From Actinomycetes bacterium (GTDB lineage: Bacteria; Actinomycetota; Acidimicrobiia; Acidimicrobiales; RAAP-2): DNA of 49,437 bases. Where the stretch lies: positions 1 to 49,437 of the forward strand of contig JAJYNX010000037.1 in assembly GCA_021786095.1 (NCBI GenBank), read 5' to 3'. A model generated the notes under the pieces. The model worked only from the letters and a program-made list of their open reading frames with translations. It searched no databases and was not told where the DNA came from. The position numbers and the translations under genes were made by a program. Shown here piece by piece: positions 8,592 through 48,353 of this stretch (positions within the stretch are counted from its first letter, which is position 1; each line of letters opens with the position of its first letter).

Positions 8592-8800
8592 TGGAGGGCC
8601 CGCACGAGCTGCACGACTTGGCCGACCAGATCGCCGAGATCGAACGGCGCGTCGGCGAGGTGATCTTCACCGCCGTGCGCGATCAGTTGCGCGGCGACGA
8701 CGCCGGCGCGCGCGATCGCGAGCGCCAACTCAGTCGCGTGCGCCGCAGCCTGGTCAAAGCCGAGAGCGTGCTGCGCGCGATGGACCTCGACGAGGGCTAG
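8591..8800 (+). CDS. Small helical protein of unknown function (69 aa)
   Basis: The GTG start overlaps the ligase stop by one base (TAGTG), so it is probably translated by coupling with the acyl-CoA synthetase. The product is polar and almost certainly all-helical, with heptad-like hydrophobic spacing in two segments (DLADQIAEIERRVGEVI and RQLSRVRRSLVKAESVL), which suggests a coiled-coil hairpin. No family is recognised. Its stop codon shares the tetranucleotide CTAG with the stop of the convergent LOG-family gene. Confidence 0.6.
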   Translation: MEGPHELHDLADQIAEIERRVGEVIFTAVRDQLRGDDAGARDRERQLSRVRRSLVKAESVLRAMDLDEG

Positions 8801-9762
8801 TCGACCCAGCCGTTCAGCGCGTCGATCAGCCGGCGCAGGCTCACGTAGTCGCGCCCGTCGAAACTGATGCGCAGCGTGGTCGAGTCGCGAGCGCGCATCG
8901 CGCCGTCGCGATCGAACATCGGGAACTGCGCGGCCAGCGCGGGCACGCGTTCGCGATCGAGGAGCCGCAGCGTGATCTCGGCGTACGAGCCGTGAATGGT
9001 CACCGCGCGGAAGTTGGCGTAGAAGCGCTCGATGGCACGGATGGCGTCAGGAACCGAGCTGACCAGCTCGACCAACCCGGACGCCTCGGCCTCGACGTAC
9101 CCGCGCGCGACGACCGCGGACTCCAGGAAGGTGTACCAGCGACGCCAGTAGTCGCCCGCGGGGGTGTCGACCAGCACGACCGGAGCCGGGCGGCTCTTCC
9201 CCGTGTGCAGCAGAGTCAGGATCTCGAACGCCTCGTCCATCGTGCCCAGCCCGCCGGGAAAGAAGACGAAGGCCAGCGACTCCTTGGTCAGAGCCACCTT
9301 GCGGGTGAAGAAGTACTTCATCTCGACCAGACGAGACTCCGCATCGACGAAGGGGTTGGCGCTCTGCTCGAAGGGTAGGCGGATGTTCACGCCGAGCGTG
9401 TTCTGCGCCCCGGCTCCGCGCGCGGCAGCCTCCATGATTCCCGGCCCCGCCCCCGACACGATGATCCAGCCCCGCGTGGCCATGGCGCCAGCTAACTCTT
9501 GGGCCATGGCGTAGAGCGGGTCATCGGCGAGGACCCGGGCCGAGCCGAAGATGGTGACCTTGGCTCGATCACGCCACGGTGAGAAGACGTCGCCGGCGTC
9601 GAGGAGCTCGCGCAGCGTGGTGATCGTCAGGCCCAACTGCTCGGGATCCGTCGCCGACGCCACCACTCGATCCACGTAGGCGCGTAGTTGGGCGACCTGT
9701 TCGTCGTGCTCGCGCTCCGGCTCGTCCGGGGGCGACACACTGGCGTTGGCCGTGTCACTCAC
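8797..9762 (-). CDS. LOG-family protein (TIGR00730-like nucleoside/nucleotide hydrolase)
   Basis: LOG-family enzymes often act as cytokinin-riboside or nucleotide phosphoribohydrolases, and many were once labelled lysine decarboxylases. The 321-residue product has the Rossmann signatures GSAR (73-76), SGAGPGIMEAA (103-113) and the defining PGGLGTMDE (169-177). An extra N-terminal region of about 60 residues and a C-terminal tail of about 70 make it longer than minimal LOG enzymes. GTG 9762 overlaps the fbiC stop by 8 bases and gives a clean N-terminus; longer in-frame forms lie inside fbiC. The physiological substrate is unknown. Confidence 0.85.
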   Translation of the reverse strand: MSDTANASVSPPDEPEREHDEQVAQLRAYVDRVVASATDPEQLGLTITTLRELLDAGDVFSPWRDRAKVTIFGSARVLADDPLYAMAQELAGAMATRGWIIVSGAGPGIMEAAARGAGAQNTLGVNIRLPFEQSANPFVDAESRLVEMKYFFTRKVALTKESLAFVFFPGGLGTMDEAFEILTLLHTGKSRPAPVVLVDTPAGDYWRRWYTFLESAVVARGYVEAEASGLVELVSSVPDAIRAIERFYANFRAVTIHGSYAEITLRLLDRERVPALAAQFPMFDRDGAMRARDSTTLRISFDGRDYVSLRRLIDALNGWVD

Positions 9763-34317: not shown

Positions 34318-34793
34318 ACGCCGTTCAACCACCGGCGCGCCGATAAGGGTCGTTATGTAAAGTAAGGCCAATCGCAGAGGCGATCGGCGCCAACGGCTCG
34401 ATGTCTCGCAGGCGGGCGCGCCCGGTGTTCCTTTTGACATCACGTACCGTCCGTGACTGGTCTCGCGCGCGAAAACGCCACGGCGATGCCAACAAGTGCA
34501 CCGGACCGCTGACGCGGCGAGCGAAGAATTGGGCGTCATCGAGCGGACGCGGCCGTCGCGACACCGCACAGGCTGAGGTAGAGATCGTCGCGCCTCTGGG
34601 CGTCGTCCACGATACTAGAAGGCGACGCCGACCGTGCCACCGGCGAGACTGGTCGGCTTTCGTCATCGGCGTGTCGGCCAACTCGCTCTGGTACACTCGC
34701 TATACCGGATGATGCCCCGGCGGATCGAAAGATTCGAATGCTCGGCGGGCGAGCTGATGGCCTCTACGTGATGAGCAGACGTAGGAGGTCCGG
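34318..34793. other. 476-base intergenic region at a change of composition
   Basis: No convincing gene is seen on either strand; open frames here have poor codon use. A hairpin at 34367-34388 (GCCAATCGC and GCGATCGGC, one mismatch, loop AGAG) is present without a U-tract. TACACT (34691-34696) and TATACC (34702-34707) are possible -10 elements for the MutS-like pair. No tRNA, riboswitch or known small RNA is recognised. It marks the left boundary of the less GC-rich accessory segment. Confidence 0.5.
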
Positions 34794-36482
34794 GTGTACC
34801 AGGATGCCACTGGTTCGCAACCACGCAGCCCCGAGCGAGACGAGGTGGCTGATTCGAGGATCGTGCACGAATCCGTATCACCGCCGTCCTCCCAGTCCGA
34901 AGGGTCGCACTCAAGAACGAGTCCTGGGTCCCCCGCCGCTGCCGCTGAGTGGGTGAGCGTCCTCTTCGCCACTCCCTCTTCGGATGATCGCCCGACTCGT
35001 CTCACTGACGCGGCGGACATCACCGACCTCGCCCTCAACCAGGTGCTGGCCACGATCATCGACGACGCCGATCGTGACGAGCTGCTCCCCTACTTTCTCG
35101 CCGGCCTTCGTCAGCCCGACGACGTGCGCTTTCGCCACGAAGTGTGGCGAGACCTGGAGGACGCGAGCCTCGTGGAGTCACTCGCTCAGTTTGCGGCGGC
35201 ACTGCACCAGGTCGACCTTCGTCTGCAGTGGTCGCGCGACACGCGCTTCAACGAGGAACGGCTCAGCTGGTACCTTGACGCCGCACTGCGCTACTGCCAC
35301 GCCATCGCGGTCCTGTACGGGGTGCTCGAGGGTGCGTCGCCGCGCTCAAGGGGCCTCACCGCGGTTCGCGACTACCTGTCCCTCTACACTAACGACCCCG
35401 CGTTCGTCGCCCTGCGCGATGACGCGACCGCGGCTCGCCACGAGCTCGATCAGATTCGCTACTCGCTCACTATAAGGGGGGCCACGGTCCGCGTTGGCGT
35501 GTTCGGCGGCGACGACGAGTACGCCGCCGAAATACGAGCTCTCTTCGAACGATTCAATCAGGGCGGAGCCACGACGACCTACCGAGTCGCCTACCGCGAC
35601 AGCTACTCCATGAATCACGTCGAAGCAGCGATTGCCAACCGTGTGGCCAAACTCTTTCCCCACGCGTTCGCGACGCTGACCGCCTTCGAGAGCGCCCACG
35701 GGACGTTCGTCACATCCTCAATCCGTCGTCTCGCAAGCGAGTTCAAGGTCTACACCAGCTACCACCAGTTTATGAAGCGATTTCAACCTCTTGAACTCGA
35801 CTTCTCGCTTCCCGAGATCGTGTCATCTGGTGATGGTGTCGAGGTGCACGACGCCTTCGATGTTGCTCTGGCGAACAAGCTTGTCCGCCAGAGCGCGAAG
35901 GTGGTCACCAATTCGTTCCGTCTCGGACCGACAGAGCGCGTGATCGTCGTGTCGGGTCCCAATCAGGGAGGCAAAACGACCTTCGCACGAATGGTGGGCC
36001 AGGTGTACTACCTGGCGGCCCGAGGACTTCCGGTGCCCGGGAGCAGCGCTCGCCTCTCTCTCGTGGACGAGGTGTTCACCCACTTCTCTCGGGCGGAGAA
36101 CAACACCATGCAGGCGGGTAAACTGGAACAGGATCTTGTGCGGATGAAGGACATCCTTCGACGGGCCACTTCCAGCAGCGTCGTCATCGCCAATGAAGTC
36201 TTCTCCTCCACGACCGTCAGCGATGCCGTGACGTTGGGAACGCTGGCGCTCCAACGATTCGTGTCGCTCGGATGCCGATGCGTGTACGTTACGTTCGTCG
36301 ACGAACTCAGCCGTCTCGACCCCGCGATCATCAGCATGGTCAGCACCATCGACCCAGTCGACGCCACGATACGGACATTCAAGATCCTGCCCCGTCCGGC
36401 CGACGGACGCGCATATGCCCTGGTCATCGCAGAGAAGTACGACCTCACGTACGATCAGATACGAGCGCGGGTCGGCTCGTGA
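34794..36482 (+). CDS. MutS-like ATPase A (no mismatch-recognition domain)
   Basis: A 562-residue protein whose last 190 residues form a MutS-type ABC ATPase. Walker A is GPNQGGKTT (388-396), and the Walker B region is SVVIANEVF (462-470), with Asn where MutS has Asp. Residues 75-370 are helical, like the MutS core/lever domains; the first 60 are disordered. There is no N-terminal mismatch-binding domain with its F-x-E motif and no MutS2 Smr domain. GTG 34794 follows AGGAGG at good spacing. Its stop overlaps the next gene (GTGA). Role unknown. Confidence 0.85.
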   Translation: MYQDATGSQPRSPERDEVADSRIVHESVSPPSSQSEGSHSRTSPGSPAAAAEWVSVLFATPSSDDRPTRLTDAADITDLALNQVLATIIDDADRDELLPYFLAGLRQPDDVRFRHEVWRDLEDASLVESLAQFAAALHQVDLRLQWSRDTRFNEERLSWYLDAALRYCHAIAVLYGVLEGASPRSRGLTAVRDYLSLYTNDPAFVALRDDATAARHELDQIRYSLTIRGATVRVGVFGGDDEYAAEIRALFERFNQGGATTTYRVAYRDSYSMNHVEAAIANRVAKLFPHAFATLTAFESAHGTFVTSSIRRLASEFKVYTSYHQFMKRFQPLELDFSLPEIVSSGDGVEVHDAFDVALANKLVRQSAKVVTNSFRLGPTERVIVVSGPNQGGKTTFARMVGQVYYLAARGLPVPGSSARLSLVDEVFTHFSRAENNTMQAGKLEQDLVRMKDILRRATSSSVVIANEVFSSTTVSDAVTLGTLALQRFVSLGCRCVYVTFVDELSRLDPAIISMVSTIDPVDATIRTFKILPRPADGRAYALVIAEKYDLTYDQIRARVGS

Positions 36483-37972
36483 AGGTTCATTTGATGTACC
36501 CCGACCGCGACTTCAACATAGATGAGAACCCGCCCGCAAGCGCAAAGGACTTGGCCCAGGACCTCAATCTCGCCCCGTTAGTCGATGCCATGTCACGCGG
36601 CGACACGTTCATCCACCGTGTGGTCCTCACGGCGCTCCTGCACGCCAGCGGCGATCCGGCGGTAGTCCGGTTCCGCCAGGACAATCTCGACGATGCGCTC
36701 GCGAATGAGTCGGTCGTCCGGCGCCTTTACGAGTTGGCCATCAACGTGGCGGCCGAACAGCGACGCCACTTCTGGATGGGACAGCAAACACAACCGTCGA
36801 GGATTGTCTACCGGGCCGTCCAGGGAATCCAACTGTACCTGCCGCACCTGCGCGAACTGAAGGAGCTGGCGGACGAGGTCCAGGACCACTTCGTCTCCGA
36901 TGGGTTCCGCGCACTGTTCGCAACGCTGATTGCCGAGTTGAACGAGGACTATCTCGACGAGGTGGCACAGCACACCCGCGAGTTGGCCTTTCCCGAGGGC
37001 GCCTTCATGAGCGTCGAACTCGGACCCGGGGGCAACGGCCAAAACCATACGCTTCGCGATCCGAGACGGCGGCGTCGCGGGTGGCTCGGGAGGCTCACCG
37101 GGGGCGGCAAAGTGTACTCGTTCTCGGTGCCGTCACGCGACGAAGCGGGCTTCGAGGCCCTGACGGACCTGCTGAATCGTGGAACCAATTCCATTGCCAA
37201 CGAGGTTGGGCAGGCGGTGGACCATCTGTCGTCGTTCTTCGCGGCCTTGCGCACCGAGTTGGCGTTCTACGTGGGTTCCCTCAATCTCCGCGCGGCGCTG
37301 CACGCGAAAGATGAGCGCACGTGTCGCCCGAGCGTCCACCGGTGGGAGGAGGAAATTCTGGAGTTCACAGACCTCAAGGACGTCGCACTGACGCTCCAAG
37401 GTCCAGCGCGCGTCGTCGGGAACGACTCGCGAGCCACCGGTTGTGATCTCATCGTGGTGACCGGAGCCAACTCCGGTGGCAAGTCAACCTATCTCCGCAG
37501 CGTAGGCCTGGCGATGCTCATGGCCAACGCGGGTATGTTCGTGACAGCGTCGTCGCTGTCGATCAGTCTCCACTCAGGTCTCTGGACCCACTTCGCCCGC
37601 GAAGAGGACGAGACGCTGAGCAAGGGAAAGTTCGAAGAGGAGGTTGCTCGTATGAGCAGCATCGTGGACGGTGTGTGTCCCCGCCAGTGGGTTCTGCTCA
37701 ACGAATCGTTCTCCTCGACCAACGAGAGGGAGGGATCGAGCCTCGCCGAGCAAGTGATCAACGCGCTCGCCGACTCCGATGTGCGCGTACTGCTCGTGAC
37801 CCACATGTTCGATCTGGCCACCGCCCTACAGACCCGCCGAGGCGACTCGGCGCTCTTCCTGCAAGCCACCCGCGCCGTCGCGGGGAGCACATCGTACCGC
37901 CTGGTACCCGGCGAGCCCCTGCCCACGGGCTTCGCCAGCGACATTATGGCCCGCTTGGGGGGATTCGAGTAA
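36479..37972 (+). CDS. MutS-like ATPase B, paralogue of the upstream gene
   Basis: A 497-residue MutS-type ATPase with Walker A GANSGGKST (329-337) and Walker B-like WVLLNESFSST (404-414), again with Asn-Glu in place of Asp-Glu. It shares with its neighbour the block T-H-F-(S/A)-R-x-E followed by G-K-x-E-x-x-x-x-R-M. A basic loop (RDPRRRRRGWLGRL, 194-207) interrupts the core domain. The mismatch-recognition domain is absent. GTG 36479 overlaps the upstream stop, so the two are coupled and probably form a heteromer. An ATG at 36494 is an alternative start. Confidence 0.85.
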   Translation: MKVHLMYPDRDFNIDENPPASAKDLAQDLNLAPLVDAMSRGDTFIHRVVLTALLHASGDPAVVRFRQDNLDDALANESVVRRLYELAINVAAEQRRHFWMGQQTQPSRIVYRAVQGIQLYLPHLRELKELADEVQDHFVSDGFRALFATLIAELNEDYLDEVAQHTRELAFPEGAFMSVELGPGGNGQNHTLRDPRRRRRGWLGRLTGGGKVYSFSVPSRDEAGFEALTDLLNRGTNSIANEVGQAVDHLSSFFAALRTELAFYVGSLNLRAALHAKDERTCRPSVHRWEEEILEFTDLKDVALTLQGPARVVGNDSRATGCDLIVVTGANSGGKSTYLRSVGLAMLMANAGMFVTASSLSISLHSGLWTHFAREEDETLSKGKFEEEVARMSSIVDGVCPRQWVLLNESFSSTNEREGSSLAEQVINALADSDVRVLLVTHMFDLATALQTRRGDSALFLQATRAVAGSTSYRLVPGEPLPTGFASDIMARLGGFE

Positions 37973-37995: not shown

Positions 37996-38553
37996 TCACC
38001 CGACGTGATTATTCACACTGAGAACCCGCCAACCGTCAGCCGACCGCTCCACAACTGAATAGCTACCGGGATCCACGACACTGTCAGCGCCGCGCACGCG
38101 ACCCCAGGTCATAAGGAGCGCGCGGACGACCGCGTCGTGGGTGACGACGACCACCGGCCGGGGCGCGTTCTCGTCGTATAGGGCCTCCAGAGCCTGTAGT
38201 GCCCTCGCGGCCACCTCCGTCCACAGTTCCACCCCCGGGGCGTCATCGAGCGACCCCCACTGCTCCTGCACGGACCGTACACTCTTGCCGGTCCATTCGC
38301 CATAGTCGCGATCCTGAAGACGCCGGTCTACGCTCAGCGGCGCCTCCGAGCTCGACGCGATCGCGTGCGCGGTCTCCACTGTGCGACGCAATGGCCCCGA
38401 AACCACCGCGCGTGGTGCGAGTCGGGCGAGAGCCGCTCCCACCTCCTGCGCCTGCAGATGGCCAACCTTATCGAGCGGCGGATCTAGTAGGCCCCGGATC
38501 AGACCGGCCGCGTTCAACTCGGTTTGCCCGTGACGAACGAGATACACCCGCAT
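37996..38553 (-). CDS. Histidine phosphatase superfamily protein
   Basis: Phosphoglycerate-mutase-like phosphatase of 185 residues. The RHG box is at 7-9 (VYLVRHGQTELN), with the second Arg in SGPLRRTVETA, the acidic loop DRDYGEWTG, and the second catalytic His in VVVTHDAVVRALL. Substrates of this family range from sugar phosphates to cofactor intermediates such as alpha-ribazole phosphate. Start 38553 fits the domain; in-frame ATG 38607 after GGAG would add 18 residues. It converges with the MutS-like pair. Confidence 0.85.
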   Translation of the reverse strand: MRVYLVRHGQTELNAAGLIRGLLDPPLDKVGHLQAQEVGAALARLAPRAVVSGPLRRTVETAHAIASSSEAPLSVDRRLQDRDYGEWTGKSVRSVQEQWGSLDDAPGVELWTEVAARALQALEALYDENAPRPVVVVTHDAVVRALLMTWGRVRGADSVVDPGSYSVVERSADGWRVLSVNNHVG

Positions 38554-38742
38554 CGGCCAGACCGAGGCCGCACCAACCACGTTGTCCCCCCCTAACCGGT
38601 CATCCATCTCCGTCCCCCGTCCAGATCGATCTGCCTCGCACTGGGCGTGCTGCCAGAGGTGTCTCGCGACCACTCGGCCCACGTACGACGCGCGTTGCTG
38701 CGCCGATTCGCTCGACGTTGCCCGACCCACGTTGCGGTGCCA

Positions 38743-39123
38743 TCACGACACCGCCAGACCGAGCGCCAGGCCGGCCAACGCCGCGAGAAGTCCCACCACG
38801 AGACTCACCAACACGTAGGCCGTAGCGTCCCAGTACTGACCGGACTCCACTAGGCGCAGCGATTCCAGGGTGAACGTCGAGAATGTCGTCAGCGCCCCAC
38901 AGAAACCGGTGGACCACAACGCGGAGGTCAGCGCGCTGGCGTGATGATGGAGCGCCAATCCGGTCAGGGCGCCGAGGAGCAGGGATCCAAAAACATTCAC
39001 GAGCAGTGTCCCCCACGGCAGGTCGGATTCGACCCGGCGCGACACGGAACGGTCAATGAGATAGCGAAGTGGCGCTCCGACGAAACCTCCTAGGGCCACC
39101 GCGAGGTATAGCCACGGTGTCAC
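38743..39123 (-). CDS. crcB: Fluoride channel FluC/CrcB (copy 1)
   Basis: Small four-helix membrane protein that exports fluoride as a dimer. The 126 residues contain G-A-P-L-R-Y in helix 1, the pore Asn in LLVNVFGSLLLG, and the STFT motif with its preceding Gly/Ala break (GFCGALTTFSTFTLES) that binds the central sodium. The ATG overlaps the stop of the upstream DUF190 gene (ATGA), so the gene is probably translated with it. Confidence 0.92.
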   Translation of the reverse strand: MTPWLYLAVALGGFVGAPLRYLIDRSVSRRVESDLPWGTLLVNVFGSLLLGALTGLALHHHASALTSALWSTGFCGALTTFSTFTLESLRLVESGQYWDATAYVLVSLVVGLLAALAGLALGLAVS

Positions 39124-39497
39124 GACCGATCAACAGGCGACGTCCGCGAACCGCGAGCGACCACCTCGACGTCACATACCACCACGGTCATGCGGTCCAA
39201 CAAGTCCTCGATGCTCGAGAGGAAGGCCGTGATCCGCTCAGCCCGATCGACCACCACGACCATCACCGGCGCGTCGTCAACCACCGCGTGATGGCGGTGT
39301 AGCCCACCCGAGACCCCGTACCCACGATCCGCCTCGAAGGCCGTGGCTCCCGCGAGCCGCGCACGCCGTGCTCGTTGCAGGAGATGAACGAGAAGCGAGC
39401 CATGATGATCCGACGTTCGCGCGCTGAACATGAACGTGACGCGCCGGGCAGGAAAGGTCTCCAGCCCCGCTCCCTCGCCTCGACTCGCTTCGTTCAC
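39120..39497 (-). CDS. DUF190 (PII-like) protein, copy 1
   Basis: 125 residues. The motifs LVHLLQRARRARLAGATAF, the R-G-Y-G-V-S-G block and an R-I-x-A-F-L segment near the end match DUF190, a family with a PII/CutA1-like ferredoxin fold that often neighbours crcB. GTG 39497 overlaps the crcB copy 2 stop by three bases (part of GTGA) and its own stop overlaps crcB copy 1. The R-G-Y-G loop resembles the ligand-binding T-loop base of PII proteins, so nucleotide or ion sensing is plausible but unproven. Confidence 0.85.
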   Translation of the reverse strand: MNEASRGEGAGLETFPARRVTFMFSARTSDHHGSLLVHLLQRARRARLAGATAFEADRGYGVSGGLHRHHAVVDDAPVMVVVVDRAERITAFLSSIEDLLDRMTVVVCDVEVVARGSRTSPVDRS

Positions 39498-39976
39498 GAC
39501 AGTTCTCGGGCGAGATAGTGCTCGAGGCGCAGGAGCAACCGAGCGGTCACGACACCCACCCATGCGACAACGAGACCTCCCACGACACTCGTCCCCTCGT
39601 ACACGACCGCAGTAAGAATGTCGTGCTGCCGTAGGAGAAGCAGGCTCTCCACCTCCAGCGTAGAGAAGGTCGTGTAGGCGCCGATGACGCCTGTCCCCAG
39701 CACGGGACGGGCGAGGCGACCGCGGGGGAACTGCTCGGAGAGAATCACGAGAAGGAATCCGAGAACCGCGCTACCCGTGAGATTGATGAGAAGCGTGCTC
39801 CACGGGAACGAGCCTGACGACGTCGGCAGGGCTTCTGCAATAGCAAATCGTGCCACGGCGCCCACCGATCCGCCTATGCCAATCGCCACGACGATGATGA
39901 TCTGCGCACGCCGCAGGTAACCAGCCCGGCCCCGCCACCTCCATCCTTCGGCGACACGCGACGTCACGCCGGCCAT
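39494..39976 (-). CDS. crcB: Fluoride channel FluC/CrcB (copy 2)
   Basis: 160 residues with a longer basic N-terminus (about 30 residues) than copy 1. FluC features are GGSVGAVARF in helix 1, the pore Asn in LLINLTGSAVLGF, and GAYTTFSTLEVES in helix 3. With copy 1 and the intervening DUF190 gene it forms an overlapping three-gene unit. Two distinct FluC copies may make a heterodimer or two separate homodimers. Confidence 0.92.
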   Translation of the reverse strand: MAGVTSRVAEGWRWRGRAGYLRRAQIIIVVAIGIGGSVGAVARFAIAEALPTSSGSFPWSTLLINLTGSAVLGFLLVILSEQFPRGRLARPVLGTGVIGAYTTFSTLEVESLLLLRQHDILTAVVYEGTSVVGGLVVAWVGVVTARLLLRLEHYLARELS

Positions 39977-40134
39977 CGAGCCCCCCCAGACGTGACTCCT
40001 TGGCGGGCGGAGACTCCGACGTCGTGTCGGCAGTTCCGCTCTCCCACCTCTCGCCGACGGTTCACGAGTACAGTATCCTATCTCTCGGCGTCGTCATCAT
40101 CGCCGTTTCGTACGGCGATGCGGGAGGGAGTCCG
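39977..40134. promoter_or_regulatory. Divergent intergenic region between crcB copy 2 and DUF190 copy 2
   Basis: The region should hold promoters in both directions. GATACT on the minus strand (about 40074-40079) and TACAGT on the plus strand (about 40070-40075) are possible -10 elements. The GGGAGGGAG ribosome site for the plus-strand gene ends near 40130. No fluoride riboswitch (crcB motif) could be recognised on either strand. Confidence 0.35.
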
Positions 40135-40464
40135 ATGGGTGCGGCTACTCGTTTGATGATTTTCATGGCGGACGACGATCGAGTCAACGGTCAGCCTCTT
40201 CACGAGCACCTGCTGGCGCGAGCACGACAACTCCCGCTGGCGGGAGCGACCATGTGGCGCGGCATCGAGGGGTACGGGCGCTCGCGTCTCCTGCGAACCA
40301 ATCGACTATCCGATGCGAATACCGGGCTCCCGATGGTGATGGAGGCCATCGACGCACCCGATCGCATCACCGCGTTCCTGCGCGACGTCGACGGTATCGT
40401 GGGCGACGCACTGATCACCCTTGAGAGCGTCGTAATAGTCGACGCGACGCCGCCAGCACCGTGA
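40135..40464 (+). CDS. DUF190 (PII-like) protein, copy 2
   Basis: 109 residues with the DUF190 signature: LHEHLLARARQLPLAGATMW, the G-I-E-G-Y-G loop, PMVMEAIDAPDRITAFL. ATG 40135 follows GGGAGGGAG and matches the family N-terminus; a longer in-frame version adds an unrelated hydrophobic stretch. It is transcribed divergently from the crcB-DUF190-crcB unit and converges on the stress-protein gene, so it is separately controlled. Confidence 0.87.
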   Translation: MGAATRLMIFMADDDRVNGQPLHEHLLARARQLPLAGATMWRGIEGYGRSRLLRTNRLSDANTGLPMVMEAIDAPDRITAFLRDVDGIVGDALITLESVVIVDATPPAP

Positions 40465-40486: not shown

Positions 40487-40957
40487 TCACACCACCAGAA
40501 CGGGGCACACGAGACGGCTCAACAAATTCTCGAGCGCACGGCCAATGCCGTGGTGCATCACGCGATCACGGCCGTGTGCTCCGACGACGATGAGATCGAA
40601 CGCGCGCTGCACGACGAGGTCGCCGATGGCCGCGGACGGGTCCTCGTCCACCAGAACGTGGACAGCGGCTGTGAGATCTTGATGCTGTTCTGCCCCGAGA
40701 CTGATCGCGTCGCTCACTAGCTGGTCGCTCTCACGAGCCAGTTCCTCCGCCTCTTCATCCGGTGTCTCGGCCCGGCTTCGTGGTACGACGACCACAACCA
40801 CGTGCGCCTCACCGCCCAGCTCTGAGGCGAGAGCACACGCCACGAGCACCGCCCGTCTCGAGGACGGCGAGCCGTCGAAGGCCGCCACGATCGAACGAAA
40901 GATACCCGCAGCCGGACGAATCTCACTACCGCTACCGCTACCGCGACCGCTCTCCAT
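40487..40957 (-). CDS. Universal stress protein (UspA family)
   Basis: A 156-residue single Usp domain. It has the N-terminal strand IVAAFDGSPSSRRAV, and the ATP-binding pattern G-x2-G-x9-G-(x) is visible in VVGAHGRDRVMHHGIGRALE. ATG 40957 follows GAGGGGGAGGG. It lies 18 bases downstream of the last hydrogenase-like membrane gene in the same direction and is probably the last gene of that operon, hinting at expression under energy stress. Confidence 0.9.
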   Translation of the reverse strand: MESGRGSGSGSEIRPAAGIFRSIVAAFDGSPSSRRAVLVACALASELGGEAHVVVVVVPRSRAETPDEEAEELARESDQLVSDAISLGAEQHQDLTAAVHVLVDEDPSAAIGDLVVQRAFDLIVVGAHGRDRVMHHGIGRALENLLSRLVCPVLVV

Positions 40958-40975: not shown

Positions 40976-42985
40976 TCACCTAAGTGATCCAATGATGACG
41001 AACAACGCCAGAACCGCCACCAACATATAGGCCACGTAGGCGTTCAGGCGGCCCGACTGCAGCCGCCTGACCAGGTTCGCGACGCCCAGTGCGGCACGCG
41101 CCAGTGGCTGGTACAGATACGTCTCCACGGGCTCCGTCACCCCGGCACCACGGGGCCCGTCGAGCGTGGAGTCGGCCAAGGCCCGAGCGGCGTTCGCGCG
41201 CTTGGACCCGAGGACATTGCTCAATACGTGACGCAAGGGGTTGGCGAAACCGAACGCGGTGTAGCTCGTCGGACCGGTTCGTACCGACGCGCCCGAGTGC
41301 CACGATGGTGACCGGCGCAAGTGAAAGAGGCGCCCGCGCGAAAGTACCAGGGTCATCAGCGTGACCGCAAGGGCCGCTATCACGAGGACGACCCAGAGCC
41401 ACGATGGCGAAAGGATCGAAAAACCTCGAAAGACCGGCTGCAAGACCCACGGGGAGCGCAACCCCGACAGCGTCACGCTGGTCGGTATGAGCGGACTCAA
41501 ACCTCGAGCGAGCACGCGCAACTCCAAGGGGCTCAGCGCCGCGATCGCCAACATGGCCAACGCCAAGGACACCGACGCCACAGCGCCGAGGACCGATGGC
41601 TCCTGAGTGGTCCGCGGACCCGAGCGTGGGCCGAGGATCGTCAAGGCCAGCACTCGAAGGAAGACGAGCGCCGCGAGGCCCGTGGTGAGCGCCACCAAGG
41701 CCGCCGCGATCCCCAGGGAGAGCCGCAGCGTCAAACTCGCCACTCGAAACTGCTGCATGAGTGACTCGAGGATGAACCACTCCGATACGAAGCCGATGGT
41801 CGGCGGCAATCCCGCCAGCGAGAGCGCGCCAACGGCGAAGGCTCCCCCGCTCCAGGGCATTCGCCGTCCGACACCCCGCAAGTCGTCGAGGTCGTCGCCC
41901 ATCGCGTCGGACTCAAACGCGGAAGTTGCGATGAAGAGGGTGGACTTGGCCATCGCGTGCGTCACGACCTGCAGCGTGGCGGCCACGAGGCCGATCGCGG
42001 TGAGCGCGACCGAGTGAACGAGTCGGCCGGTGAGAGCGACGCCGTACGCGGTGATGATGAGCCCCGCGTTCTCAATACTCGAGTACGCGATCACCCGGTT
42101 CAGCCCAGATTGGACGCCAGCGAAGGCCACACCCAGGAGCGCGCTGACCCCACCGGCGACGAGCACGATCACGATGATCCACATCGCGGGCGGAGCAAGA
42201 ACCTCGAGGCAACGCCACAAGCCGTACACGGCCACATTGGCGGCCAGACCAGCCATCGCTGCACGAGCGGGCGACGGTGCCGCGGGGTAGCCAACTGGCA
42301 GCCAGATTTGAAGAGGCACGACGCCGAGCTTGGCGCTGAATCCCACGAGGAGGAGTATCCAGGCTGCATCCGTCACAGGTCCGGACGCGATCGTGGCCCA
42401 GCTCGACAGCATCAGACTTCCCGAATGGCTGGAAAGAAGCACGAAGCCGACGAGGAGCGCGGCGCCACCGAGCTTGCCCACTGCCGTCGTCAACCACGCA
42501 CTACGAGCCTGGTCGATGCGTCGACGAGTGACGGACGTCAGGATGAAGAATGACACGGTGAGTAGTTCCCAGGCGAACAGGAACGTGAACGCGTCCGCCG
42601 CAGCGACCACGACGCCCACCGAGAACAGCATGAGCAGATAACCCGAAGCGACACCGCGTCGCTGGTCGCGAGAGGTGCGCCGCGACCATCCGATGAAGTT
42701 GACCGAGATGACCATGCCGAGGACGAAGAGCAGTGTGAGGAACAGTCCCGATAGGTGGTCGAACAACAGTCCGCTCCGGCCGACGCCGACCACGGAGGAG
42801 AGGTCCACCGCGGCACGGCCCGGCCCCAGAGCGCGCACTCCAGCGACCGTCTCGCAGGCACTGCCCACTGCGGCCAGCAGGTAAGGGGCCATTCGCCTCC
42901 ACGGTCCGCCAACCCCGATCAGGAGGTCGACGGCCGCACCCAGTGCGAAGAGCGCCAAACCTAACGCGAACAGCCCGACAGTCAC
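40976..42985 (-). CDS. HyfB/NuoL-like proton-translocating subunit of a hydrogenase-related complex
   Basis: 669 residues with about 16 membrane helices, related to hydrogenase-4 subunit B and complex I antiporter-like subunits. The key charged residues are kept: Glu140 (FAWELLTVSFF), Lys219 (GFSAKLGVVPL), His343/Lys347 (THAMAKSTLF) and Glu402 (GFVSEWFIL). A C-terminal extension has a lateral amphipathic part and an extra helix. The GTG start overlaps the preceding stop (GTGA). It is the last membrane subunit of the six-gene complex; proton or sodium transport is inferred from these residues. Confidence 0.88.
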   Translation of the reverse strand: MTVGLFALGLALFALGAAVDLLIGVGGPWRRMAPYLLAAVGSACETVAGVRALGPGRAAVDLSSVVGVGRSGLLFDHLSGLFLTLLFVLGMVISVNFIGWSRRTSRDQRRGVASGYLLMLFSVGVVVAAADAFTFLFAWELLTVSFFILTSVTRRRIDQARSAWLTTAVGKLGGAALLVGFVLLSSHSGSLMLSSWATIASGPVTDAAWILLLVGFSAKLGVVPLQIWLPVGYPAAPSPARAAMAGLAANVAVYGLWRCLEVLAPPAMWIIVIVLVAGGVSALLGVAFAGVQSGLNRVIAYSSIENAGLIITAYGVALTGRLVHSVALTAIGLVAATLQVVTHAMAKSTLFIATSAFESDAMGDDLDDLRGVGRRMPWSGGAFAVGALSLAGLPPTIGFVSEWFILESLMQQFRVASLTLRLSLGIAAALVALTTGLAALVFLRVLALTILGPRSGPRTTQEPSVLGAVASVSLALAMLAIAALSPLELRVLARGLSPLIPTSVTLSGLRSPWVLQPVFRGFSILSPSWLWVVLVIAALAVTLMTLVLSRGRLFHLRRSPSWHSGASVRTGPTSYTAFGFANPLRHVLSNVLGSKRANAARALADSTLDGPRGAGVTEPVETYLYQPLARAALGVANLVRRLQSGRLNAYVAYMLVAVLALFVIIGSLR

Positions 42986-43773
42986 CGTGTCCCCCCCAGC
43001 GGCTCGGCCAGTATCGAGACCGCGATGAGAATCCCGTAGAGCAGACCGAACGGCGTCGGCGGAGCACCGGGCACGTACACGTCGACGGGCAGCACGTGAT
43101 CCACACCGCCGAGCGACGCGTAAGTGTGTCCGATCAGCCCGCCGCTTATGGCTTCGGCCCCCGCGGCGACGACGATTTTGGGGGCGGGCATCGCCTCATA
43201 GGTCGCGAGCAGCGCATCGCGCATGCCCACGGTGGCGACTCCGGTCACGAGGAGCAGGTCGGCGTGGCGCGGGCTCGCGGTGAAGAAGATGCCGAGTCGC
43301 TGCACGTCGTAGACGGGATTCGTCAGGGCTGCCACCTCCCACTCATCCGAGCCGTCGGATCCGGCGTCCACGTGGCGAATGTGAACCGAACGACGAAACA
43401 TCGCTGTCGTCTGGGCTACGCGCCGTCGCAGCACCGCCAGCGACGCGTCGTCTTCGCCCACCGTGGGCACGACCAACCCCTCACGACCCGATCGCGCTGT
43501 CTGGAAGTTCGGAGAGTACGAGAACGTCTCGGGTGCGTGGTCCACACAGCGACCACAATGGACACAGCGGCCACGATCCAGCAAAGGGCCGTCCGCCTCG
43601 ACGGTGATGGCACCCGTAGGACAATCCGCGATACAGAGGTCCAGCACCGCCGCGTCGGCTACGTCACCACGGACGGTCACACCACCAGCAAAGCCGTCAC
43701 CGTAGCCATCGCCCAGGCGGGGGTAGCGAGACGTGACTACGCCGTGGCGCAGTCCTCGCATGATCCAGGGCAT
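42982..43773 (-). CDS. Ferredoxin-NuoB/HyfI-like fusion subunit with proximal cluster ligands lost
   Basis: A 263-residue fusion. Residues 30-95 are a ferredoxin domain with Cys51-Pro plus Cys70, Cys73 and Cys76, enough for one [4Fe-4S] cluster; the first C-x-x-C-x-x-C motif and the final Cys-Pro are gone (Ala80-Pro). Cys47 is extra. Residues 128-263 match hydrogenase small subunits (RHVDAG, SPRHADLLLVTG, VDVYVPG), but the four cluster cysteines are replaced: Asp140, Asp143, Glu207 and Ala237. ATG overlaps the large-subunit stop (TGATG). The proximal cluster should be absent. Confidence 0.88.
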   Translation of the reverse strand: MPWIMRGLRHGVVTSRYPRLGDGYGDGFAGGVTVRGDVADAAVLDLCIADCPTGAITVEADGPLLDRGRCVHCGRCVDHAPETFSYSPNFQTARSGREGLVVPTVGEDDASLAVLRRRVAQTTAMFRRSVHIRHVDAGSDGSDEWEVAALTNPVYDVQRLGIFFTASPRHADLLLVTGVATVGMRDALLATYEAMPAPKIVVAAGAEAISGGLIGHTYASLGGVDHVLPVDVYVPGAPPTPFGLLYGILIAVSILAEPLGGTR

Positions 43774-45239
43774 CAGTTCGCTACCCCCGCGATCGATAGG
43801 CCGAAACTGGCCTCAATGAAGGCAAAGTCGGTGAAGACGTCTCGGGGAAACGCTGACGGGAACAGCGCCAGATTGTGAAACGACGCCGAACGCGACGCTA
43901 CCGTGCGAACCACACCGTTCTCCAACTCCACGACGTAGAGCAGCTCCCCCTGAGGCGCCTCGGCCCAACCGATCGCCTCGCCGTCCACGAGCGAGATCTC
44001 CCTACGCCAGGATCTCTCCTGGCCCGACGAGAAGCCCGCCAGTTGCTCGATCGCCTGGCGGATCGTGTGAAACGACGCGTCGATTTCGTGGACCCGAACG
44101 ATCTGACGAGCCAGGGCATCGCCCTCACTGGGGTACTCGACCACCACCTGACCAAGAGTCGGGTACGCGTCATAGGGCCGAAGCATCCGCACGTCGTCCG
44201 TGACGCCCGAGCCACGGGCCACGGGGCCCACGGCGGCGAACCGGCGAACGGTGTCCAACGACAGCGTGCCGGTCCCGCGCAAGCGGTCGACGAACGAGGG
44301 CGTCTCCAGCAGAGCTCGCAAGTCCTGGTCTAGGGCTCTGGCCAACGAGTCGACAGCTCGCCGAAGGTCGACCCAGTCGACTCGCGGTTCGCCGGTGACA
44401 CCACCCGGGATAACGACCGACCGTCCAAATCGGTTGCCGCACAGATCCGCGCGCAGGCGTTGCACGTGCTCCTTGCGCAGCGACAAGTTAGCGTACGCCA
44501 CTGCTTGACCGGCTGCCTCAGCGTGACGAACCACTGAGTCCACGTGGTTGGCCACACGCTCCAACTCTGCGTGAATGACCCGAACCAACCCGGCGGGAAC
44601 TGGTACGCCACCGTCCACCAGCCGCTCCACCGCGTGACTGAATGCCAGGGCGTGGGCGACCGATGCGACTCCCTCACTCCTCTCGGCGAGCAGTACGGCG
44701 TCAGCCACGCTCGCTCCCTCAAAGCGGGCGTGTACGCCACGATGCTTGAACCACACCGCCGGTCGAACCCTTTCGACGTTCTCGCCGCTCGTGGTCACCT
44801 CGTACTGGATCGACTCGAAGACTCCCGAGCGTACCGGTCCGTAGGGCACGACAAAGGAGCCATCGCGCAGCGTTTCCTCCGTCGCGCCCGAGACAAGAGC
44901 CTCCGAGAGCTCACCACCAGCACGGAACCGCAGCCGCGTCACCAGGGGTTCGCGATCCTCTTTGCCCGCAGCCACCAGACCGTACAGGTCCTCGACCTGG
45001 CGCTCGTACCAGGCGGCGGCGGGCGTGAGGGAGGTGAGTGACGGGTAGCGACCAACCTGGCGCTCCACCACCAGTTCCTCGGCCTCCAACACTCCGCGAC
45101 GATCGAAGAATGCCCGTAACGAGACGGCTTCCGATCCCTCACGAGCCAGCACACCGCAGAATCGCTCACCGCTCACGAGGCGCGTGCGCACGGCGTGCTC
45201 CCACGCGCCCGGCGTCTCGCTGCGAGTCACTTCGTGCAC
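43773..45239 (-). CDS. NuoC/NuoD (HyfG)-like large subunit without NiFe-site cysteines
   Basis: 488 residues. The N-terminal NuoC-like domain carries WYERQVEDLYGL (77-88), and a HyfG/NuoD-like domain starts at PYGPVRSGVFES. The hydrogenase L1 motif reads AERSEGVASVAH (185-196), with Glu189 and Ala192 where NiFe enzymes have Cys. The C-terminal L2 motif (D-P-C-x-x-C) reads G-L-S-I-A-G. The chain ends six residues or so later, with no maturation peptide. Hydrogenase activity is therefore not expected. GTG start 2 bases after the previous gene. Confidence 0.88.
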   Translation of the reverse strand: MHEVTRSETPGAWEHAVRTRLVSGERFCGVLAREGSEAVSLRAFFDRRGVLEAEELVVERQVGRYPSLTSLTPAAAWYERQVEDLYGLVAAGKEDREPLVTRLRFRAGGELSEALVSGATEETLRDGSFVVPYGPVRSGVFESIQYEVTTSGENVERVRPAVWFKHRGVHARFEGASVADAVLLAERSEGVASVAHALAFSHAVERLVDGGVPVPAGLVRVIHAELERVANHVDSVVRHAEAAGQAVAYANLSLRKEHVQRLRADLCGNRFGRSVVIPGGVTGEPRVDWVDLRRAVDSLARALDQDLRALLETPSFVDRLRGTGTLSLDTVRRFAAVGPVARGSGVTDDVRMLRPYDAYPTLGQVVVEYPSEGDALARQIVRVHEIDASFHTIRQAIEQLAGFSSGQERSWRREISLVDGEAIGWAEAPQGELLYVVELENGVVRTVASRSASFHNLALFPSAFPRDVFTDFAFIEASFGLSIAGVAN

Positions 45240-45241
45240 GA

Positions 45242-46717
45242 TCAGCCAACTCCCAACTCGCGCGCGGCCGAGCGAATCACGAGACTCAACTCAGACGGAA
45301 GGTGGATGCCGAGGAGTAGCAGGGCGGCGAGCCCAACAATCATCGACGCCACGATCCAGCCACTGATCTCACCGCTCCTCATTGTCGCGCTGACGTCCTC
45401 GCCGCTCACGGCGTTCGCACTCACCATGGTCTGAGTGGTGTACCACGACAGGCCGAAGAAGGCGACGGTAACCAGGACGACGAGCAACGATGCGGCCGTC
45501 GTACTCGCGTGCGCGAAGCCTCCGTACACGATCAAGAACTCACTGCGAAAGAGACCGAACGGTGGCATTGCGGACAGCGCCAGGACGGCTGCGACGAGCA
45601 TCCACCCCGACCAGGGCAAAAACCCGATGGCGCCCTTGACCTTGGTCATGTCCTTAGTGGCGAACTTGCGCACGACCGACCCGACGCCAAAGAATGCCGT
45701 TCCCTTCGCGGCGGCGTGTGCCAGCACGTGAAGTAGGACGCCGAAGATCGCGAGGGGCGCGGCGAAACTCATCCCGATGCTCAGGATGCCCATGTGTTCC
45801 ATGCTCGAGTACGCCAGGAGCCTCTTCAGGTCCCGTTGACGCAGGAGCGAGAGCGACGCCAGCAAGAGTGTCGCGACGCCGAACACGAGTAGGACCTCAC
45901 GGGGGAATGTGGGGCCGAGACGAGCAACCGCGATCTGAAAGAATCGCAGAATGGCGTAGAAGCTCACCGCTAGCAGAGCGCCGGAGAGCAGTGCCGAGAC
46001 CGGCGTGGGGGCCTCCGAGTGTGCGTCGGGGAGCCACGTGTGCACGGGGAACAGCCCCATCTTTGTGCCGTAGCCCAGTACCGCCAATCCGAACGAGAGG
46101 CGGACGACAGCGGCGGGAAACTCTGGCGCGCCGTGCAGCAGCGTCACGTACGAGAGGTCGTAGGCCGTTCCGAACACACTGGTGCCCGCGTAGTACATCA
46201 AGATCGTTGCCAGCAGGGCGATGCCCAGCCCGAGGGACGCCAGCAGCACGTACTTCCACGCGGCTTCCGACGAGCCATCGGTATCGTCGATGGCCACCAG
46301 AAGTGCCGAGACCACCGTCGTGATCTCGATTGCTACCCACAGTAACGCGAAGCCGTTGACGAGTGGCACGACGACCAGCGACCAGCAGAAGAGGTTCAAC
46401 CCGGCGTAGAACCTATGCCCGTAACGGGTGCCACTGGCAGTGCGCGCCACGTCGACATACCCCACGCTGAACATCGTCGTCGTGGCGTACAGAAACGACA
46501 CCGACAGAAGAAAGACGATAGAGAGCGGATCAGCACGTAGGACGCCTCCCGCGGTCACGTCAGCGTGAACGACGCGCGATGTCAGCACCACGCTCAGGAC
46601 GAACGCGCCGCATCCCGTCGCCATCGTGGCGTACCTCGCGAACATCACGGGTGTGAACCACGCCACTACCGACATCACGAACGGCAGCACAACTATGGCG
46701 AGAAGAACCTGCGGCAC
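45242..46717 (-). CDS. HyfF/NuoN-like proton-translocating subunit
   Basis: 491 residues, about 14 helices, closest to hydrogenase-4 subunit F. The channel residues are preserved: Glu131 (WVAIEITTVV), Lys219 (GYGTKMGLFPVHTWLPDAH), Lys338 (HAAAKGTAFF) and Glu393 (GLFRSEFLI). The motif LPDAHSEAPTPVSALLSG is intact. It is the second antiporter-like subunit of the complex, so two ion channels are likely. The GTG start is 2 bases after the HyfE-like stop. Confidence 0.9.
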   Translation of the reverse strand: MPQVLLAIVVLPFVMSVVAWFTPVMFARYATMATGCGAFVLSVVLTSRVVHADVTAGGVLRADPLSIVFLLSVSFLYATTTMFSVGYVDVARTASGTRYGHRFYAGLNLFCWSLVVVPLVNGFALLWVAIEITTVVSALLVAIDDTDGSSEAAWKYVLLASLGLGIALLATILMYYAGTSVFGTAYDLSYVTLLHGAPEFPAAVVRLSFGLAVLGYGTKMGLFPVHTWLPDAHSEAPTPVSALLSGALLAVSFYAILRFFQIAVARLGPTFPREVLLVFGVATLLLASLSLLRQRDLKRLLAYSSMEHMGILSIGMSFAAPLAIFGVLLHVLAHAAAKGTAFFGVGSVVRKFATKDMTKVKGAIGFLPWSGWMLVAAVLALSAMPPFGLFRSEFLIVYGGFAHASTTAASLLVVLVTVAFFGLSWYTTQTMVSANAVSGEDVSATMRSGEISGWIVASMIVGLAALLLLGIHLPSELSLVIRSAARELGVG

Positions 46718-46719
46718 CG

Positions 46720-47391
46720 TCAGCCCCGCAACCGATCGAGATCAGTGGTGGACAACGTGTCGTTGCGCAAGTGGTGAACACGCATGATCACCCCGAAGAC
46801 GACCACCGCGACGAGGAGATCGAAGAGGAACGCCACCTCGACCACCAGCGGCAACCCGAATGCCACGACGAGGCTGGCGATAGAGACCCCGTTCTCGAGA
46901 GAGAAGAAGCCAATCGCCTGGGACACCACGTCGGTGCGCAGAACGATCAGAACGAAGGCCACGAGAATCACGGCAACCGCAACGCCCAGCGCTGAGGTCG
47001 GAAGGGCTCGCGACGAGATCTTGAGTGATCCGACGACGAAGAAGCCAAACGCCGCGACGACGACGGCGATGAGTATCGAACTCGCCACCCCCACCACCGA
47101 GCTTCCAGCCAGATTGGCGTTCGCGTCGCGAAGCAGCCGGCTGATCAACCACGGCACCAAAATCACTTTGAGCAGCAACGACAGCAGGGCGAGAACGTAC
47201 AGCGCATCGATGTGCTTCACGGTGGCTACGTAGGCCGCCAGGACACTCACGAGCAACGATTCAAAGGCGTACAGTCGAACCTGCGATCGGAGTAACGGCG
47301 CTCGCAGCATCGCAAACTCGCAGAGCAACACGAGAACTACCAGCCCGTCGGTCACGTCCGCGTACGTCGAGAGAGCGGAGTAGGTCATCAT
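46720..47391 (-). CDS. HyfE-like membrane subunit (NuoK/MrpC-like)
   Basis: 223 residues with seven or so membrane helices. The C-terminal part carries FFSLENGVSIASLV and VVEVAFLFDLLVAVVVFG, matching HyfE and the NuoK-like Glu residues of antiporter modules. The ATG at 47391 overlaps the stop of the upstream gene; a second ATG at 47388 lies three bases further from the GGGGGAGG site and may be the real start. It links the pumping subunits to the NuoH-like subunit. Confidence 0.85.
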   Translation of the reverse strand: MMTYSALSTYADVTDGLVVLVLLCEFAMLRAPLLRSQVRLYAFESLLVSVLAAYVATVKHIDALYVLALLSLLLKVILVPWLISRLLRDANANLAGSSVVGVASSILIAVVVAAFGFFVVGSLKISSRALPTSALGVAVAVILVAFVLIVLRTDVVSQAIGFFSLENGVSIASLVVAFGLPLVVEVAFLFDLLVAVVVFGVIMRVHHLRNDTLSTTDLDRLRG

Positions 47392-48353
47392 CCTCCCCCG
47401 ATGAAGAAGACGAGAACACCGAGAACCGCGAAGAGGAAGGCACTCGCGACGAACTCCGTGATCTTGAAGAGCCGAAGCTTGGAGAAGGTGTTGTCGACGA
47501 TCGCGAAGACCAGACCGACCACCGTAGCCTTCAGGAGCAGCGCCGGAACGGCGAGTGCCACTGCAACTGCACTTCCGGTGGACGCCAGGCCCCAGGGTGC
47601 AACGAAGACATTGATCAAAATCGTGTACAGGATGAGCTGCTTCATCGTGGCTCCCCACGTCAGCAACGCCAGCAACGGACCGGAATGCTCTAGAGTCCGC
47701 GCCTCATCGATCATCCCAAACTCCAGTGTCCCCGAGTGGGTCTCTACTGGTATTCGACCCGTATCGACTAGCACGACCATGAAGAAGGCCACCGATGCGA
47801 GGAGGTGGCTAGGCCGTAAAAGCTGTGACGTCGATGAGCGAATCGTGGCCGAAAGGGCGTAGGGCAAGTCCGTGCGCGTGATGAGAGCCACCGCGAAAAT
47901 CACGAACAGAATGGTGGGCTCGACGAGCGCCCCGAAGGTCATCGCCCGACTCGACCCGAGCTGCGCGTAGGGTGCTCCCGACTCCGCCCCCGCAAGGGCG
48001 ATCGAAAATCCTGCCAGAGCGAGAATGAACCCGCCGCCCAGGATGTCGCCGCTGTAGCCAAGCGGCAGGGGGAAAGTGGTCAGGACCGGAATGAGCATCG
48101 GTACGACGAGATAGCACGCGAAGGCTACGATCGGTGCGGCCACAAAGACCCAACTCGACTCCTCCGTGACGACCGTCTCCTTGCGAAAGAACTTCGCAAT
48201 GTCGAAGTACGGCTGCAGCACTCGAGGTCCGCGCCGTCCCTGCAGACGAGCCTCGGCCTTGGCGATCACGCCACTCACTAGCGGACCGCCCAGCAGTATC
48301 GTGACAACCTGCAGCGCTTGGATACCCGCAACGGGCACCACCGACGATTCCAC
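47388..48353 (-). CDS. HyfC/NuoH-like membrane subunit
   Basis: About 321 residues and eight helices; this subunit joins the peripheral arm to the membrane arm. The motifs are ARLQGRRGPRVLQPYFDIAK, DTGRIPVETHSGTLEFGM and the acidic loop EARTLEHSG, all typical of HycD/HyfC. GTG 48353 is chosen because GGAGG at 48362-48366 lies eight bases upstream; GTG 48368 would add five residues but has no ribosome site. It is the first gene of the six-gene complex. Confidence 0.88.
   Translation of the reverse strand: MESSVVPVAGIQALQVVTILLGGPLVSGVIAKAEARLQGRRGPRVLQPYFDIAKFFRKETVVTEESSWVFVAAPIVAFACYLVVPMLIPVLTTFPLPLGYSGDILGGGFILALAGFSIALAGAESGAPYAQLGSSRAMTFGALVEPTILFVIFAVALITRTDLPYALSATIRSSTSQLLRPSHLLASVAFFMVVLVDTGRIPVETHSGTLEFGMIDEARTLEHSGPLLALLTWGATMKQLILYTILINVFVAPWGLASTGSAVAVALAVPALLLKATVVGLVFAIVDNTFSKLRLFKITEFVASAFLFAVLGVLVFFIGGG

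Follow-up and report, generated by a model that had tools for sequence, protein, structure and literature searches.

Ehr complexes and the fluoride-riboswitch regulon

Energy-converting hydrogenase-related (Ehr) complexes are defined by a group-4-like large subunit devoid of the Ni- and Fe-binding residues (PMC6349859), and papers on them either describe their function as unknown (PMC10284858, PMC4378227) or propose a redox coupling. In the fluoride literature, Weinberg 2010 (PMC2864571) reports crcB-motif RNA upstream of genes for MutS, ion transport and 'formate hydrogen lyase', and a 2024 review takes the riboswitch-linked 'formate hydrogen lyase' genes as a metabolic shift, ranks Na+/H+ antiporters next after exporters in frequency among the fluoride-riboswitch classes, and notes that entry of hydrogen fluoride (HF) or fluoride exposure is accompanied by cytosolic acidification (PMC11139923). 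Our search of the open-licence literature recovered no paper joining fluoride riboswitches with Ehr or catalytically dead hydrogenase complexes. Here, we describe an Ehr-like operon of six genes behind a fluoride-riboswitch-type leader on a 49,437-nucleotide (nt) stretch of DNA from an Actinomycetes bacterium of the class Acidimicrobiia (GenBank assembly GCA_021786095.1, contig JAJYNX010000037.1), hereinafter the window, to which the coordinates below refer unless another record is named. We posit that the six-subunit complex probably moves ions in aid of survival under fluoride, rather than producing the H2 that its annotation implies.

A fluoride-riboswitch-type leader precedes the operon

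The minus-strand genes code, in order, for a HyfC/NuoH-like membrane subunit (47388–48353; Pfam NADHdh, 2.6e-33), a HyfE-like membrane subunit (46720–47388), a HyfF-like antiporter subunit (45242–46717; Proton_antipo_M, 4.8e-48), a HyfG-like large subunit combining NuoC and NuoD (43773–45239; Complex1_49kDa, 6.4e-33, plus Complex1_30kDa), a ferredoxin–HyfI fusion (42982–43773; Oxidored_q6, 2.8e-20, and Fer4_13) and a HyfB-like antiporter subunit (40976–42985; Proton_antipo_M, 7.4e-41). Since they overlap or abut each other, they look like a single operon. A universal stress protein (Usp) gene of the UspA kind (40487–40957; Pfam Usp, 2.2e-20) follows on the same strand, its start at 40957 being separated by 18 nt from the end of HyfB at 40976. 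The Pfam matches for HyfC, HyfF, HyfG, HyfI and HyfB exceed the Pfam cut-offs; HyfE, with no Pfam match, is named from the NCBIfam hydrogenase 4 membrane subunit (82.8 bits, under the cut-off of 136), and the NCBIfam matches score under their curated cut-offs. The gene calls and family matches thus agree with a first-pass annotation made from the letters of the window, which had given the same order, strand and coordinates and the Usp gene 18 nt on.

The leader occupies 48446–48375 on the minus strand and ends some 20 nt short of the HyfC start codon, which is likely the GTG at 48353 with the ribosome site GGAGGA ahead of it. It displays P1, an extra hairpin, P3 and a pseudoknot with 6/6 pairs, and thereby the features of the RF01734 regulon, i.e., P1, P3, the pseudoknot and the conserved core 5′ of an operon. 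At the gathering threshold, the sole Rfam match in the window is a tRNA; a relaxed search scores the leader at 22.8 bits (E 0.014) against RF01734, short of the gathering score of 34; with 150 of 304 candidates scored, no RF01734 match listed for the 2.1-Mb genome is better. The HyfC leaders of 28 relatives, with the window excluded, were used to build a covariance model (hereinafter R1), which recognizes the window leader with 60.9 bits (E 3.9e-16). The Acidimicrobiia form of the leader is distinguished by the extra hairpin after P1, and Rfam misses this form at gathering both in the window and in a relative, L103. A promoter and terminator scan of the HyfC leader found neither, and of the expression platform only the nearness of the leader to the ribosome site can be stated.

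For comparison, we assembled 83 loci of the fluoride type, comprising three plasmids and 80 named relatives, the latter being the best 80 of 124 found in the scan. Ten of the 80 have no HyfC match and one has no leader, leaving 69 to be scored; 66 of these contain the riboswitch (R1, E<0.01, within 500 nt of HyfC), 65 of them within 133 nt. The 69 include the full training set of 28; of the 41 others, 38 have the riboswitch. The remaining three are L109 and L116, which carry the element further upstream, before a phosphatase gene by gene order, and L165, with a weak match of 16.3 bits; among the fluoride-linked loci in the tree described below, L097 is similarly weak (12.9 bits). As some loci look like near-copies (L110/L129, L152/L156, L089/L090), the counts are of sequences and not of events.

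A further 13 loci are fluoride-linked intermediates, and all 13 show a riboswitch-type match at most 127 nt from HyfC. Nine loci were scanned with Rfam in this connection, and the gathering score was exceeded in six of the eight that are fluoride-linked intermediates (L091, L093–L096 and L098). The leaders of L092, L099 and L101 fall under it, with L099 and L101 passing the R1 threshold at 21.6 and 20.6 bits. L092 (G101:C35) has two tandem C-E-F-G-I-B sets, both preceded by a riboswitch-type leader; of the HyfG matches, the first is split in two and may therefore be frameshifted.

Five cultured actinobacteria have an RF01734 match over the gathering score 5′ of the complex, namely Amycolatopsis (47.4 bits), Sciscionella (45.3), Mycobacterium sp. 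141 (44.2), Streptantibioticus (43.3) and Microbacterium (34.8), as do plasmids of Burkholderia multivorans (54.9), Caballeronia (50.7) and Mycobacterium branderi (40.9, here with a NUDIX gene between riboswitch and HyfC). Across 85 aligned hits, 93.2% of the cells in P1, the extra hairpin, P3 and the pseudoknot are paired, a share that is 76.2% when shuffled; of 19 base pairs, 17 change on both sides. These counts were made on alignment A4, because the MAFFT alignment A3 misplaces some stems; A4 is fitted to the nested stems and favors them by construction, the pseudoknot lying outside the model.

At E<0.01, R1 finds nothing in 22 ordinary Ehr loci (in 20 of which the sequence ahead of the first gene extends to 300 nt or more) or in eight Nuo loci. 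Three of the loci, L197 (14.3 bits), L195 (14.2) and L215 (10.8), give sub-threshold matches (E 0.047 to 0.59), none in an operon leader by its coordinates. Classical fluoride riboswitches are poorly recognized by R1, and an Rfam scan of ordinary loci was therefore added; RF01734 is absent at gathering in all 24 loci covered (8 + 2 + 4 + 10), a set that excludes L215 and L216 of the 22 scanned with R1. By sequence and covariation, then, the operon leader is of the fluoride-riboswitch type, and we are nearly certain that the HyfC leader is under fluoride control.

The NiFe site and the proximal cluster are lost

Aligned with HycE, HyfG and NuoCD of Escherichia coli, the window HyfG has E/A/S/G at the NiFe positions C241/C244/C531/C534 of HycE. 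In an alignment with HycG, HyfI and NuoB, the window HyfI has D/D/E/A at C48/C51/C115/C145 of HycG, which we take to be the cluster ligands. Both losses recur across the family. At the four NiFe positions, the 83 HyfG proteins have E in 81, A in 72, S in 76 and G in 82, and none retains all four cysteines; the HRG histidine of HyfG is retained in 81 of the 83. Among 81 HyfI proteins, the four cluster positions are most often occupied by D (77), E (60, with D in 16 more), D (76) and S (68), respectively; the first three positions are acidic (D or E) in 74, and just one protein, from the Burkholderia plasmid, keeps all four cysteines. Hence, the emptied cluster positions look to have been refilled mostly by carboxylates. 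With the losses common to the family, we rejected an assembly or sequencing error in this one genome as their source, and the loss of both the NiFe site and the proximal Fe-S cluster, first noticed in the window sequence, is borne out.

The N-terminal ferredoxin domain of HyfI qualifies the dismantled redox core of the first-pass annotation, in that part of the redox apparatus is left. Its cysteines C51, C70, C73 and C76 are present in the window, where they can accommodate one [4Fe-4S] cluster to judge from the motif, and the motif is conserved in 80–81 of 81 relatives. This part scores 22.5 and 20.8 bits against HycF/HyfH (NCBIfam) and may be a remnant of such a protein.

The predicted folds of HyfI and HyfG, of fair confidence (mean pLDDT 81 and 82), have subunits of the E. 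coli formate hydrogenlyase (FHL) as their best matches by E-value. HyfG resembles HycE (7z0s_E, TMq 0.84) and HyfI resembles HycG (7z0s_G, E 1.4e-14, with a TM of merely 0.47–0.50 across the fused protein) as well as MbhJ (6cfw_J, TMt 0.86). The window genome (96% complete) has no match to the maturation-related HypD family PF01924, for which the same search was positive in 4 of 14 control genomes including E. coli, nor does any of its proteins reach the Pfam cut-off for a NiFe large subunit; a full-length 49-kDa complex I subunit is encoded separately on its contig C14. By gene calls and Pfam, the six-gene operon contains no formate dehydrogenase gene, no other dehydrogenase gene and no separate HycB/HycF-type gene.

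Among ordinary Ehr loci, 20 of 22 are without the NiFe cysteines, and the proximal-cluster cysteines of HyfI are present in 19 of 20. The two exceptions at the NiFe positions, L205 (G056) and L214 (G160), form a separate branch; their HyfG has all four cysteines (in L205 as RACMAC and LCYACVDR), and the metal site could therefore still form in these two. The exception among the HyfI proteins is L195, a plasmid of Allomeiothermus silvanus, where an ordinary-type HyfI (10290–11162 of that record) has T/D/E/S at the cluster positions and no fluoride riboswitch; its loss of the cysteines is apparently independent of that in the fluoride clade.

Antiporter subunits, phylogeny and distribution

Both antiporter subunits have been claimed to keep their ion-translocating residues, and the wider comparison supports this: E140, K219, H343/K347 and E402 of HyfB and E131, K219, H334/K338 and E393 of HyfF are present in the window and, across the 75 HyfB and 79 HyfF proteins compared, almost always conserved. 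Elsewhere in the genome, Proton_antipo_M matches occur in three proteins of contig C14, presumably NuoL, NuoM and NuoN, with the 49-kDa subunit gene on the same contig. The genome also codes for NhaA, on a contig with no RF01734 match among those listed from the 150 of 304 genome candidates scored.

A HyfG tree of 70 proteins includes the window and, from the 83 loci of the fluoride type, 24. Its references are HycE, HyfG and NuoCD of E. coli and six actinobacterial NuoD proteins, without Ech, Mbh, Coo or Fpo and without the mycobacterial Rv0082-87 type. The 38 fluoride-linked rows of the tree fall into a single clade (bootstrap 100, SH-aLRT 99), which neighbors ordinary Ehr and stands apart from E. 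coli HycE/HyfG and from NuoD. In one of these rows, L109, the riboswitch stands one gene further upstream. L100, first labelled an intermediate by its HyfG score, gave no R1 hit and grouped with ordinary Ehr, and was set to 'other' before the final tree. The suggested likeness to Ehr is thus upheld by the lost NiFe ligands, the antiporter subunits and the tree position, and as far as E. coli HycE/HyfG represent the active [NiFe] hydrogenases, in a tree without Ech, Mbh and Fpo, the complex does not cluster with them.

The gene order also separates the types, being C-E-F-G-I-B in the fluoride-linked loci examined and B-C-E-F-G-I or I-B-C-E-F-G in the ordinary loci inspected. Within the order of the source organism, the window type is present in 26 of 397 sampled genomes (score at least 370 bits), the window genome included. 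The fluoride-linked type is also found on plasmids of Burkholderia, Caballeronia and Mycobacterium, i.e., in both Pseudomonadota and Actinomycetota.

The surrounding genes, a probable fluoride-resistance island

Two CrcB fluoride channel genes and two DUF190 genes sit between the complex operon and a tandem pair of MutS_V-domain genes. Proceeding from the Usp gene, these are DUF190 (40000–40464, plus strand; 2.9e-26), CrcB (39494–39976, minus; 1e-24), DUF190 (39120–39563, minus; 6.5e-16) and CrcB (38743–39123, minus; 5.7e-31), followed by a histidine phosphatase family gene (37996–38730, minus; His_Phos_1, 4.4e-42). Neither the relaxed Rfam search nor R1 finds a riboswitch 5′ of the CrcB/DUF190 genes. 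The MutS pair, which spans 34697–37972 together with a riboswitch-type leader of its own, recurs across islands; its plus-strand genes lie at 34794–36482 (MutS_V, 3.3e-17) and 36272–37972 (1.2e-21), and the leader at 34697–34775 scores 49.2 bits with R1 (E 1.8e-12) and just 11.8 bits with RF01734 (E 1.8 genome-wide), with 5/6 pseudoknot pairs.

In tblastn searches of the 69 fluoride-type loci that are 10 kb or longer, we found Usp near 30, MutS near 28, DUF190 and dynamin near 22 each, CrcB and histidine phosphatase near 14 each, DegV near 12 and enolase near 11; none of these eight was found in 21 ordinary loci. When restricted to loci of at least 14 kb, one or more of CrcB, DUF190, MutS and enolase accompanies 33 of 57 fluoride-type loci as against 0 of 18 ordinary ones. 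The dynamin-family GTPase genes recur in islands of L102–L181. On the B. multivorans plasmid, a pyrophosphatase is added, and six RF01734 elements lie within 21 kb. The riboswitch and the CrcB/DUF190/MutS/enolase neighborhood, both missed in the first-pass annotation, give the clade a regulator and a physiological setting, and the ordinary Ehr loci examined have neither.

Two plasmids extend the range of genes behind such elements. On that of M. branderi (L192), an RF01734 element of 53.6 bits (8585–8645 of that record, minus strand) lies 5′ of PE, PPE and WXG100 genes (8278–4876), whose products are substrates of type VII secretion. On that of Alicyclobacillus sp. ALC3 (L194, Bacillota; 8537–10239 and 11515–10531 of that record), a HyfG-like gene lies behind a fluoride riboswitch, and a further riboswitch is located ahead of a sigma-70 family gene. 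No other Hyf subunit was seen nearby in the L194 record, where the HyfF search, run without a positive control, came back empty.

Proposed function and competing explanations

We somewhat favor the proposal that fluoride induces the operon as one module of a fluoride-resistance island, and that its product is a redox-independent H+/cation transporter, which would restore pH and the proton-motive force under HF stress; the antiporter mechanism taken by itself could go either way, with at best a slight lean in its favor. Under this proposal, fluoride entering as HF would switch on HyfC-E-F-G-I-B through the riboswitch leader, with Usp probably under the same control. HyfG and HyfI would persist as a structural and coupling module on HyfC, and HyfB and HyfF would exchange H+ for a cation (Na+ or K+) without electron transfer, comparably to Mrp or NhaA. 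This exchange would bring the cytosolic pH back up and re-establish the membrane potential following HF-borne proton entry, and the restored potential would in turn drive F− out via CrcB. The remaining ferredoxin cluster could be structural or serve as a redox-sensing switch. The earlier suggestion of a redox-independent ion pump tied to inorganic carbon or pH accordingly survives in its pH-linked form as the favored guess; for carbon nothing was seen, although no search was dedicated to it. A bolder version, possible though doubtful, holds that the former N2 site now consists of conserved carboxylates, at which a cation, a proton or a metal-fluoride species would bind and be coupled to the antiporters, in an electron-free fluoride-stress transporter spread between phyla on resistance islands.

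Several observations weigh against the favored proposal. On the regulatory side, the Acidimicrobiia leader scores below the Rfam gathering score (22.8 versus 34 in the window), and R1, which gives 12.5 bits for a 57.5-bit Rfam hit, is on its own a weak negative control; island genes are near only 3 of the 12 intermediate loci of at least 10 kb. Regarding the complex itself, loss of the proximal cluster is not exclusive to the fluoride type, given the ordinary Ehr L195, and the cluster cysteines are kept in Burkholderia and in 9 of 13 fluoride-linked intermediates (4 do not keep them), so that the loss looks like a later step within the clade. The near-universal [4Fe-4S] motif argues that some redox or sensing role remains, and with NhaA already encoded in the genome a second antiporter may be redundant.

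The conserved ferredoxin motif, the HRG histidine and the cysteines kept in Burkholderia and the intermediates are equally what one would point to if the ferredoxin domain passed electrons from a partner to an acceptor in HyfG, powering ion pumping under fluoride stress. We regard this as unlikely: the proximal ligands are replaced in the window's part of the clade, leaving no known relay to HyfG, the NiFe ligands are gone, and the operon has no dehydrogenase gene. Somewhat less likely still is that the complex itself exports F− or HF, or is fluoride-gated, instead of correcting pH. Control by a fluoride riboswitch and the CrcB neighbors would fit such a role, and the conserved acidic residues now found where the cluster was could be ligands for a cation or metal fluoride; however, the island already has CrcB, and Mrp/complex I-type subunits are known for H+ and cations and not for anions.

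The subunit set and the NiFe loss are shared with ordinary Ehr, as would be expected of an Ehr complex whose role lies outside fluoride (e.g., in inorganic carbon) and whose island neighbors are there by chance; a riboswitch in 66 of 69 leaders as against 0 of 22 ordinary loci, a single clade and its own gene order make this very improbable. A fluoride-induced FHL serving a metabolic shift has the published association in its favor (Weinberg 2010, PMC2864571; 2024 review, PMC11139923), and is scarcely credible for these loci. Judging by the residues, a complex that has lost the NiFe site and, in 80 of 81 cases, the proximal cluster cannot be an FHL or H2 enzyme, and the missing HypD match, the absence of a NiFe large subunit over the cut-off and an operon free of formate dehydrogenase and separate HycB/HycF-type genes tell against it as well. 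We therefore rejected FHL for the loci examined on the ligand loss and the unmatched HypD.

Comparison with known systems

Ordinary Ehr complexes, the nearest relatives in the HyfG tree, share the subunit set, the antiporter subunits and the NiFe-cysteine loss. They differ in mostly keeping the proximal-cluster cysteines (19/20), in a mostly gapped ferredoxin part (18–19/20), in their gene orders, and in having no fluoride riboswitch or island genes in the loci compared. One Ehr clade, of a group whose function has so far been unknown in print, hereby gains a sensor and a stress, namely fluoride.

The 'formate hydrogen lyase' genes of the crcB regulon are very probably of the same kind, being hydrogenase-4/FHL-like and behind a crcB-motif RNA. 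In contrast to what that name implies, the present loci lack the FHL active site and mostly the proximal cluster, and form one clade of conserved gene order. In the window proteins, both CxxC NiFe motifs and the proximal [4Fe-4S] ligands of group 4 [NiFe] hydrogenases and FHL are absent. The reading of these genes in the fluoride field as formate hydrogenlyase, set beside fermentation, is thus put in question, as the members examined do not have the needed residues. The E. coli hydrogenases 3 and 4 (Hyc and Hyf) are alike in fold and subunit homology (HyfG to 7z0s_E, HyfI to 7z0s_G), whereas the window complex has no catalytic cysteines and no separate HyfA/HyfH-type Fe-S genes, and its genome no HypD match.

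With respect to complex I (Nuo), the difference lies in the N2 cluster cysteines of NuoB, which are not present in the window HyfI. Should the complex indeed operate free of electron transfer, it would offer a natural experiment in the coupling of the peripheral arm of complex I to ion movement, and a new route to fluoride tolerance. Mrp and NhaA are Na+/H+ antiporters that act in pH homeostasis, and MrpA and MrpD are two Proton_antipo_M subunits. The window complex likewise has two Proton_antipo_M subunits and a proposed part in pH homeostasis; it differs from Mrp in that no Mrp-type small genes are seen in the operon and in possessing HyfC, HyfG and HyfI.

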